Shown here: positions 6,243-9,730 of the stretch, in pieces | Numbering within the stretch: the first letter of the stretch is position 1 | Layout of the letters: the number at the start of each line of letters is the position of its first letter | NCBI GenBank assembly: GCA_016124255.1 | Contig: WGOB01000008.1 | Location: 62,001 to 126,000 of the forward strand | DNA length: 64,000 nucleotides | DNA from: Alphaproteobacteria bacterium | GTDB lineage: Bacteria; Pseudomonadota; Alphaproteobacteria; Caulobacterales; Aquidulcibacteraceae | Direction: 5' to 3' | Notes under the pieces: generated by a model | Database searches by the model: none | What the model was told of the DNA's origin: nothing | What the model saw: the letters and a program-made list of their open reading frames with translations, nothing else | Program-made: the position numbers and the translations under genes

Positions 6243-7733
6243 ATGAGCGCGCCCCCCACCCCTTCGGCCTCAGGCTGCCACGGCGGCGCCGATGAGATGC
6301 GCGCCGCCGCTGCGCGTGCCGGCAAGTCCGACGTGCTTGATCAGTACGCGGCCGATTATCCAAAGGGCCCGCACGATCAGCCGCAAAGCATGTGCCCGGC
6401 GTTCGGCAGCCTGCGCGTCGGCCTGCGCATGCGCCGCACCGCGACGATTCTTTCCGGCTCCGCCTGCTGCGTCTACGGGCTGACGTTCACGTCCCATTTC
6501 TACGGCGCACGCCGCAGCGTCGGCTACGTGCCGTTCAGTTCCGAGACGCTCGTCACCGGCAAGCTGTTCGAGGACATCCGCGAAGCGGTCCATCAGCTCG
6601 CCGATCCCGAGAAGTACGACGCGATCGTCGTCACCTCGCTCTGCGTGCCCACGGCATCCGGCGTGCCGCTGCAGCTCTTGCCGAAAGTGATCAACGGCGT
6701 CCGCATCATCGGCATCGACGTGCCGGGCTTCGGCGTCCCCACGCACGCGGAAGCGAAGGACGTGCTCGCCGGCGCCATGCTCCGCTACGCGCGCAACGAA
6801 GCCGAAGCCGGCGCGGTCGCCGCGCCCCGCCAGCGCGCGCAATTGCCCACCGTCACGCTGCTGGGCGAACTCTTCCCGGCCGATCCCGTCGGCGTCTCCA
6901 TGATGCTGGAGCCGATGGGTCTCGCCGCTGGGCCCACGGTCCCGACGCGCGAATGGCGCGAACTCTACGCCGCGCTCGATTGCGTCGCCGTCGCCGCCAT
7001 TCATCCGTTCTACGTCGCCTCGGTGCGCGAGTTTGAAGCCGCTGGCCGCCCGATCATCGCCTCAGCGCCCGTCGGCCGAGAGGGCGCGGCTGCATGGTTG
7101 GAATCCGTCGGCGCGGTGTGCGGGGTCGCCCGCTCGAAGATCGATCAGGCGAAGAACCGCGCGCTGGGGATGATCGCAAAGACGCTCGAGAGCGCGCGCA
7201 TCAAGGGCCGTATCACGGTCTCCGGCTATGAAGGCTCGGAGCTCTTGGTCGCGCGCCTGCTGATCGAGTCAGGCGCCGATGTGCCTTATGTCGGCACCGC
7301 GTGCCCGCGCACGCGCTGGTCCGATCCCGATCGCGCATGGCTCGAAGCGAAGGGCGTGACCGTGCGCTTCCGCGCGTCGCTGGAGCAGGATCTCGCCGCC
7401 GTCGACGAGCATCAGCCCAACCTCGCGATCGGCACCACGCCCGTCGTGCAGCACGCAAAAGAGCACGCGATCCCTGCGCTCTACTTCACCAATCTGATCT
7501 CCGCGCGCCCGCTCATGGGCGCAGCCGGCGCAGGCGCGTTGGCGCAGGTGATCAACGCCGCCCTCGCCAACGGGACGCGCTTTAAGACCATGCGCGCGTT
7601 CTTCGAAGGCGTGGGGCAGGGCGATACGAGCGGCGTGTGGGAAGAGACCCCCGCCGACCAATCCGATTTCAAGGCCCGCTACGCGAAAGTTCTCGCGGCC
7701 CGGCGCGCCGAAGAGGAGGCGGTCGGCACATGA
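6243..7733 (+). CDS. bchY: Chlorophyllide reductase subunit BchY
   Basis: CPAFGSLRVGLRMRRTATILSGSACCVYGLTFTSHFYGARRSVGYVPF; ends at the TGA of an ATGA overlap. Confidence 0.95.
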   Translation: MSAPPTPSASGCHGGADEMRAAAARAGKSDVLDQYAADYPKGPHDQPQSMCPAFGSLRVGLRMRRTATILSGSACCVYGLTFTSHFYGARRSVGYVPFSSETLVTGKLFEDIREAVHQLADPEKYDAIVVTSLCVPTASGVPLQLLPKVINGVRIIGIDVPGFGVPTHAEAKDVLAGAMLRYARNEAEAGAVAAPRQRAQLPTVTLLGELFPADPVGVSMMLEPMGLAAGPTVPTREWRELYAALDCVAVAAIHPFYVASVREFEAAGRPIIASAPVGREGAAAWLESVGAVCGVARSKIDQAKNRALGMIAKTLESARIKGRITVSGYEGSELLVARLLIESGADVPYVGTACPRTRWSDPDRAWLEAKGVTVRFRASLEQDLAAVDEHQPNLAIGTTPVVQHAKEHAIPALYFTNLISARPLMGAAGAGALAQVINAALANGTRFKTMRAFFEGVGQGDTSGVWEETPADQSDFKARYAKVLAARRAEEEAVGT

Positions 7734-7807
7734 TGCTCGTCCTCGATCACGACCGCCCAAATTTGCATATCTCGGGCGATCGTTTGCGCGACGGAGGAGA
7801 GTTATGA
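7730..7807 (+). CDS. Upstream mini-ORF 1, decoy bchZ start ([25 protein letters not shown])
   Basis: Starts in ATGA overlap with bchY stop and ends in ATGA overlap with mini-ORF 2; GGAGGAG precedes the next start. Confidence 0.45.
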
Positions 7808-7881
7808 CTCTCATCCTCGATCACGATCGCCCAAATTTGCATATCTCGCGCGATCGTTTGCGCGACGGAGGAGAGTTATGA
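7804..7881 (+). CDS. Upstream mini-ORF 2, decoy bchZ start ([25 protein letters not shown])
   Basis: Starts in ATGA overlap with mini-ORF 1 stop and ends in ATGA overlap with bchZ start. Confidence 0.45.
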
Positions 7882-9326
7882 CTCTCATCCTCGATCACGA
7901 TCGCGCCGGCGGCTATTGGGGCGCCGTCTACGCCTTCACCGCCATCAAGGGCCTGCAGGTCATCATCGACGGGCCGGTCGGCTGCGAAAACCTGCCCGTC
8001 ACTTCCGTGCTGCACTACACCGATGCGCTGCCGCCGCATGAATTGCCGATCGTCGTCACCGGCCTCGGCGAAGAGGAGCTCGGCAAGGTCGGCACCGAAG
8101 GCGCGATGCGTCGCGCGTGGAAGACGCTCGATCCGGCGCTGCCGGCGGTGGTCGTCACCGGCTCCATCGCCGAAATGATCGGCGGCGGCGTTACGCCGGA
8201 AGGCACCGCGATCCATCGCTTTCTGCCGCGCACCATCGATGAAGATCAATGGCAGAGCGCGGACCGCGCGCTGACGTGGCTGTGGCGCCAGTTCGGGCCC
8301 AAGCGCACGCCGAAGCTGCGCCCGCGCAAGGAAGGCGCAAAGCCCAAGGTCAACATCATCGGGCCGATGTACGGCATGTTCAACATGCCCTCCGACCTCG
8401 CCGAGATTCGCCGCCTCATCGAGGGCGTCGGCGCCGAGGTGAACATGGTGTTCCCGCTCGGCAGCCATCTCGGCGACGTGAAGAAGCTGGCTGACGCGGA
8501 AGTCAATGTCTGCCTCTATCGCGAGTTCGGGCGCCAGCTCTGCGAAGCGCTGGAGCGGCCGTACCTCCAGGCGCCGATCGGCATCGAATCCACCACGCTT
8601 TTCCTGCGCGCGCTCGGCGAAACGCTGGGCCTCGATCCCGAACCCTTCATCGAGCGTGAGAAACACACCACGCTGAAGCCGCTCTGGGATCTCTGGCGCT
8701 CCGTCACCCAGGATTTCTTCGGCACCGCCAGCTTCGCCATCGTTGCCAACGAAACCTACGCACGCGGGGTGCGCGCGTATCTCGAGGACGATCTTGGCCT
8801 CCCGTGCACGTTCGCTGTCGCGCGCCGCGCCTCCGCCAAGACCGACAACGCAAGCGTCCGCGATTTGATCGCGGAGAAGCCGCCGCTCATTCTCTTCGGC
8901 AGCATCAACGAGCGCATGTACCTCGCCGACCTTGGCGTCCGCGCGAGCTTCATCCCGGCATCGTTCCCCGGCGCCGCGATCCGGCGCCATACCGGCACGC
9001 CGTTCATGGGCTATGGCGGGGCGACATACCTCATCCAGGACGTGTGCAACGCGCTGTTCGACGCGCTCTTCCACATCTTGCCGCTCGCCTCGCAGCTCGA
9101 TCAGGTCGACGCGACGCCCGCGCGCGCTGCCCTCGCCTGGGATGATGACGCCCGCGACGCGCTGGAAGAACTCGTCGCCGCCCAGCCTGTGCTCGTGCGC
9201 ATTTCCGCCGCCAAGCGCCTGCGCGACGCCGCCGAACAGGCCGTCCGCGCGGCCGGCGCCGCATCGGTCACGGTCGAACACGTCGCATCCGCGCGCACAG
9301 CGCTCGCCCAGGGGCGGGCGGCATGA
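7878..9326 (+). CDS. bchZ: Chlorophyllide reductase subunit BchZ
   Basis: [67 protein letters not shown]. Confidence 0.96.
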
Positions 9327-9490
9327 CGCGCGCGTTGAAATCAGATTCGCCTGGCGCGTTCGCGCGCGGGCGCAACGCCCTTCAGGGCTGGAGCGGGACG
9401 CAGCAGGCCGCGCTGCGCCCAGAGTCGCGCAAGCGACCGAACCAGAAGCCGCATGAGCGCGGCGCGCGGCCTTGCCGGCAAGCAAACTGA
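9323..9490 (+). CDS. 55-aa hypothetical ORF in pufQ position ([55 protein letters not shown])
   Basis: ATGA overlap with bchZ stop, ends 12 nt before pufB; lacks the transmembrane segment expected of PufQ. Confidence 0.35.
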
Positions 9491-9502
9491 TTGGAGGACC
9501 CA

Positions 9503-9730
9503 ATGGAAAGAGACGCCCGAACAGGCTCATTGTCTGGGCTGACAGAAGCGGAAGCGAAGGAATTCCATCGCATCTTCATGACCAGCTTCATCCTGTTCAC
9601 GATCATCGCAATCGTGGCGCACGTCCTCGTCTGGATGTGGCGTCCGTGGCTGCCTGGCCCCGGCGGATACGCCGAGATCCAGGACGCGGTGCAAATGGCC
9701 GGCCTCTGGGCCAACGGCCTTCTGGGATAA
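9503..9730 (+). CDS. pufB: Light-harvesting 1 complex beta subunit PufB
   Basis: [45 protein letters not shown] upstream. Confidence 0.95.

Follow-up and report, generated by a model that had tools for sequence, protein, structure and literature searches.

In an alphaproteobacterium of the family Aquidulcibacteraceae (assembly GCA_016124255.1), the beginning of bchZ is repeated in tandem behind bchY, and two short open reading frames (ORFs) lie within the repeat. How did this arrangement arise, and what does it mean for the translation of bchZ? We addressed these questions in the 64,000 nt stretch of contig WGOB01000008.1 that contains the locus (the window, in whose coordinates positions are given) and at the bchY–bchZ junctions of other genomes. 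The bchY product is a subunit of chlorophyllide a oxidoreductase, and bchZ encodes its partner subunit; according to Pfam, both proteins are nitrogenase-component-1-like.

A chain of overlapping frames between bchY and bchZ

All features of the junction are on the plus strand. The bchY gene (6243–7733; Pfam Oxidored_nitro, E=3e-48) ends in a TGA stop codon (7731–7733) that lies within an ATGA, and bchZ (7878–9326; Oxidored_nitro, E=2e-41, and PCP_red) is 68–77 % identical to annotated plasmid bchZ genes. The frames and coordinates agree with the original prediction of two mini-ORFs of 25 codons linked to both genes by ATGA overlaps. uORF1 (7730–7807) overlaps the bchY stop and the next start, and uORF2 (7804–7881) ends in an overlap with the bchZ start, giving the chain bchY–ATGA–25 codons–ATGA–25 codons–ATGA–bchZ, with 144 nt between the coupled partners. 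The stop–start distance is −4 at all three steps, inside the coupling range of −8 to +10 nt, and each start in the chain has a Shine–Dalgarno (SD) sequence at usable spacing. A GGAGGAG had been predicted before each restart, and is present for the starts at 7804 (7793–7799) and 7878 (7867–7873); the start at 7730 has instead an SD-like AGGAGG inside bchY (7714–7719).

The proposed pair of 74 bp direct repeats (7730–7803 and 7804–7877) was also found, with five mismatches (93 % identity), as was a third, partial copy of 27 bp at the bchZ start that is identical to copy 2, the 27-mer being present at 7730, 7804 and 7878. Tandem Repeats Finder gave 2.3 copies with a score of 317, the top array in the window. 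A better register pairs 7757–7830 (unit A, a 47 bp leader plus a copied bchZ start) with 7831–7904 (unit B, the 47 bp leader plus the start used by bchZ); these are identical at 73 of 74 positions and differ only at 7775 (G) versus 7849 (C). The remaining four mismatches all fall in 7730–7756, which the 27-mer family and the junctions of relatives mark as an older copy of bchZ codons 1–9 (MMLVLDHDR), and they set that 27-mer apart from the two later copies.

This pattern of mismatches is why we distinguish two events, probably an older insertion of leader and start followed by a recent tandem duplication. The 27-mer at 7730–7756 is probably the original bchZ start adjoining bchY, behind which the older event would have placed the 47 bp leader and a second bchZ start; the later duplication would have added one more unit, and appears recent because the better register leaves a single mismatch. 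A 74 bp unit leaves a remainder of 2 on division by 3, so that the chain would stay intact whatever the unit number, and chains with 0 to 4 units keep the same coupling. The start may have been copied when homologous recombination made the joint on the bchZ side and illegitimate joining made the other, of which the L239 start described below would be an example. Comparison of the 47 bp leader with its own genome, as originally proposed, found no second locus in a search of the whole 3.34 Mb assembly, and the leader was rejected as a dispersed repeat of this genome. A metagenome scan with a species-specific stretch returned one relative that shares the downstream bchZ stretch and lacks the repeat; that scan yielded no other strain of the species carrying the repeat, and the repeat of the window is known from one assembly. 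The top-scoring repeat of the assembly lies on the same contig, outside the window (C78:45343–48358), and is a degenerate tandem array with a period of 282 and about 10.7 copies.

The CG-rich hairpin (CGATCGC...GCGATCG; 7846–7865 in unit B) that had been predicted to recur in each repeat was not stronger than in shuffled sequences (z 0.1 and −0.6). Somewhat better supported, at z about −1.9, is another predicted hairpin (GGA.GGAGAG-UUAUGA.CUCUC.UCC) that would enclose the SD and start codon of bchZ (7867–7890; equivalent 7793–7816). An Rfam scan of the leader gave only chance matches far below the cut-off and no curated RNA family, and scans of the leader for promoter-like and terminator-like sites found none. 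On the minus strand, a 569 aa open frame (7821–9530) runs antisense to bchZ and is longer than bchZ; it is probably spurious, this being a GC-rich gene, though able to mislead ORF callers.

Inserts at the junction in other genomes

We surveyed about 250 bchY–bchZ junctions in all, mostly from Alphaproteobacteria; the sources were genomes of relatives, of the class, of three families and of the phylum, together with a public genome collection and a metagenome. This second comparison that had been proposed revealed that inserts recur in other genomes. In a first set of 226 non-redundant junctions, the genes were adjacent or overlapping at 208 (mostly by −4) and gapped at 18; with 12 further cases, extra DNA of 31–190 bp was present at 30 junctions. 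The inserts are of three sorts: some are dispersed palindromic repeats, some have no known origin, and some consist of a copied bchZ start with a leader behind it. Copied-start inserts occur in the window, in three genomes of the same family or order (G005, G010 and G063), in a Hyphomicrobium metagenome-assembled genome (L019), in Erythrobacter sanguineus (L027) and in L239, whilst dispersed palindromic repeats with many copies per genome lie at the junction in L207, L218, L223 and L243. In L019 (G797:C6), a 100-N scaffold gap falls inside a bchZ-start tandem repeat of 86 bp units, and the true copy number is uncertain because both contig ends carry the same unit. The inserts are scattered on a bchZ tree, where well-supported branches require at least 13 changes, and sister genomes lack inserts.

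At all 30 gapped junctions an open frame or chain of frames, here termed a relay, leads from the bchY stop to the bchZ start, where shuffles predict about 7.6; not one of the 30 is uncoupled. In the first set, relays were found at 18 of 18 gapped junctions against 4.7 expected from dinucleotide shuffles with random length modulo 3; they begin at an ATG overlapping the bchY stop, and their own stop overlaps the bchZ start. Chains of two frames are present in the window, L019, L096 and L102. These counts come from a strict test, which replaced a lenient definition of bridging (start within ±10 nt, TTG allowed) that was too permissive. When related inserts were pooled into 12 conservative groups and the largest null probability of each was taken, the product was p 2e-7; the null probability per junction is about 0.3, so that the weight of the case comes from how many independent events there are.

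The rule, fixed beforehand on other genomes, was then applied to out-of-sample material, drawn from eleven plasmids, an additional Erythrobacter-like genome and another genus sample of Sphingomonas type. Relays were present at 12 of 12 gapped junctions (inserts of 64–172 nt), where the null probabilities sum to about 2.9. The product over 10 groups is 3e-9, or about 3e-6 without L294, which carries the greatest weight in that product and whose relay starts at a GTG immediately following TAA. Half of these junctions (6/12) are on Roseobacteraceae plasmids, including pRLO149_94 of Roseobacter litoralis, and the annotation of gapped junctions on such plasmids gives bchY and bchZ as separate, non-overlapping genes. 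The relays of Roseobacter litoralis Och 149 and Erythrobacter sanguineus each consist of a single ORF. No N-terminal extension of BchZ of insert size was seen among the 30 gapped junctions (L258 has a short extended start with a TGATG overlap). Because the insert sequences differ, and at least one other frame has stops in every single-relay insert, it is the frame that is kept and not the peptide.

Amongst the start-copy relays, those of L239, L283, L027 and L277 (Erythrobacter-like and Sphingomonas genomes) have similar leaders (MTLVxDHG...FV.I), and their sisters are without relays. L239 and L027 share an identical new 27 bp bchZ start (ATGACCTTGGTTCTCGATCACGACAGG) that differs from the start in L239's own sisters, which suggests transfer of a very short segment. 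Across orders, the cores of start-copy leaders are more alike than shuffles (z 12.8, in a comparison chosen after viewing them). It is conceivable, but rather doubtful, that a single small element, spread horizontally, is the ancestor of all start-copy relays (those of the window, its Caulobacterales relatives, a Hyphomicrobium, and the Erythrobacter-like and Sphingomonas genomes). Such an element would insert just behind the start codon, copy the first 7–9 codons and carry its own SD, and, if real, would enter coupled genes without uncoupling them.

The relay rule is particular to bchY–bchZ among the operon junctions tested. At the same loci, relays were found at 0/96 gapped pufA–pufL and 0/87 gapped pufB–pufA junctions, and at close to the expected number of pufL–pufM (3/66, expected 1.5) and bchX–bchY junctions (2/21, expected 1.4). 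The bchZ–pufB junction was intermediate, with 27 of 94 relayed and 10.8 expected, an excess that is probably due to pufQ, or a pufQ remnant, starting in the bchZ stop. Relays are also not general in the genome of the window, where crude gene calls, too rough for more, gave 36 bridged pairs among 516 gapped same-strand pairs, with 22 expected. Within the window itself, a short ORF of 55 aa without a Pfam match (9323–9490) starts in the bchZ stop, forming a second ATGA overlap. An ORF starts within the bchZ stop at 87 of 104 bchZ ends; its sequence is varied, and it is pufQ in several Roseobacteraceae.

Proposed translational relays and alternative readings

These observations led us to propose that the two mini-ORFs are, very probably, translational relays that keep the synthesis of BchZ dependent on the translation of BchY. 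A ribosome finishing BchY at the TGA of the ATGA would restart at the overlapping ATG, translate 25 codons, stop at the next ATGA, repeat this once and then restart on bchZ, with the GGAGGAG within each mini-ORF assisting the next restart. In two-reporter assays in E. coli and H. volcanii, a stop–start gap of about 20 nt nearly abolishes termination–reinitiation (PMC10666635), and for this reason an insert of 31–190 nt would uncouple bchZ unless it were translated into the bchZ start; older reporter studies cited in the same paper report coupling across long gaps. Subunits of heteromeric complexes are over-represented among overlapping or coupled gene pairs (PMC10666635). The best explanation of the sequence comparisons is that the two heterotetramer partners, BchY and BchZ, have to be produced through termination–reinitiation, and that inserts would survive only as relays; in the 30 genomes with junction inserts, translation of the two proteins appears never to have been uncoupled. 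The insertion in the window would have survived because bchZ stayed coupled to bchY, and balance of the subunits in the BchYZ heterotetramer may be the selective reason, with the mini-peptides probably by-products. Against an exclusive relay, bchZ has a strong SD, and some independent initiation is possible. Serial termination–reinitiation through ATGA-joined mini-ORFs, as originally predicted, has strong comparative support in the 30 of 30 relays; the label 'decoy' does not suit frames that would be the route to bchZ. The repeats may, as was also suggested originally, tune BchZ relative to BchX/Y or polarity into puf; the relay would maintain coupling at any unit number.

The mini-ORFs could alternatively be regulatory, lowering or setting the output of BchZ (or of puf) with copy number as a rheostat. 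Every added restart could shed ribosomes, the predicted hairpin holds both SD and start, and two-unit chains are also found in G005, G010 and a Hyphomicrobium. We nevertheless consider this unlikely, as relays made of unrelated repeats behave alike, which points to preserved coupling over specific control, no variants in copy number were seen, and the predicted accessibility of SD and start is the same at inserted and plain junctions; overall predicted folding is marginally stronger at the inserted ones (p 0.04). Open frames across the inserts are likewise predicted if translated inserts serve to stop Rho termination before bchZ–puf, ribosome delivery to bchZ being secondary. Protection from polarity, however, requires coverage and not a stop that overlaps the bchZ start, and untranslated gaps of about 80–135 nt are normal at pufA–pufL in the same operon, making this explanation quite improbable.

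A role for the mini-peptides themselves, as functional small proteins with the BchZ N-terminus, would fit the DHD(R)...LR-R-like stretches common to start-copy peptides and the differences between L239 and L283, which lie mostly at third codon positions (1/2/7). Over five pairs, however, the differences by codon position are 15/12/22, which leaves the idea of peptide selection weak, and the peptides have no Pfam match and are unrelated in most relays elsewhere; we regard functional peptides as very unlikely. A chance tandem duplication or an assembly artefact, devoid of translational meaning, is also very unlikely: although the repeat comes from a single assembly, its copies are not identical to each other, their differences at 1–5 positions argue against assembler stutter, and independent genomes show the same layout, each time in frame. 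Finally, bchZ shares the frame of bchY, and the 48 codons that separate them are open (530 open codons, against 482 aa for bchZ), an arrangement that would allow read-through of the bchY TGA into a BchY–BchZ fusion; this phase accompanies only two-unit chains and is not seen at single-relay junctions, and such a fusion is extremely improbable.

Known systems and the meaning of the relay rule

Mycobacterial interspersed repetitive units (MIRUs) can occur in tandem, a property used in copy-number typing. They are mobile and located at start codons (Supply 1997, as reviewed in PMC12548453), and are described there as short units at a gene start, each with an ORF coupled to its neighbour by a −4 nt overlap, which makes their insertion nearly harmless. 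The unit in the window similarly lies where a stop and a start overlap, and its ORF is joined to the neighbour on either side by a −4 nt overlap (ATGA at 7730, 7804 and 7878). Unlike MIRUs, it includes codons 1–9 copied from the host gene itself, and whereas MIRUs are dispersed over many loci, it is found at one locus in the assembly. MIRUs concern many loci of one genome, and the relay outcome one junction across proteobacterial lineages. Compared by description, MIRUs are the closest known kind; the unit would work like a MIRU but, being non-dispersed, is not classed as one. The sphingomonad repeats of L207, L218, L223 and L243 landed exactly in the bchY–bchZ overlap, and their relay frame is free of stops; these REP-type repeats behave MIRU-like at this junction.

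In engineered bicistronic designs (BCDs), a short leader frame that contains an SD ends at the next start, to which it brings ribosomes, and overcomes RNA structure. BCD leaders (PMC5995908; PMC12548453) are the engineered counterpart of the relay, which is natural, operon-internal, tandem, and fed by bchY instead of de novo initiation. ATGA/TGATG termination–reinitiation pairs (PMC6728339, PMC10666635) likewise have −4 overlaps and encode subunits of heteromeric complexes; unlike such directly overlapping pairs, the partners here stand 144 nt apart, with two 25-codon frames spanning the distance. A mini-ORF of the axe-txe operon (PMC8708949) also influences a downstream gene through its frame and distance, but it is a two-codon minigene, for which the authors propose an effect through mRNA stability. 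The original statement that no equivalent had been described holds for this junction, as we found no bchY–bchZ relay described in the searchable literature; other genomes commonly have such arrangements at this junction, and an equivalent elsewhere is provided by MIRUs (PMC12548453). We believe that the rule across lineages, by which inserts at this junction survive as relays, is new.

Comparison seldom reveals whether overlapping genes are simply compact or need to be coupled, since overlaps rarely break. The bchY–bchZ overlap has been broken many times, in many lineages and by unrelated DNA, with an open relay frame kept each time, and this comparative evidence points to strong selection on termination–reinitiation between two subunits of a complex. 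The junctions offer natural constructs for the study of relay efficiency, copy-number effects and subunit balance, and indicate that unannotated short frames between the genes of an operon can have a function even where their peptide has none.
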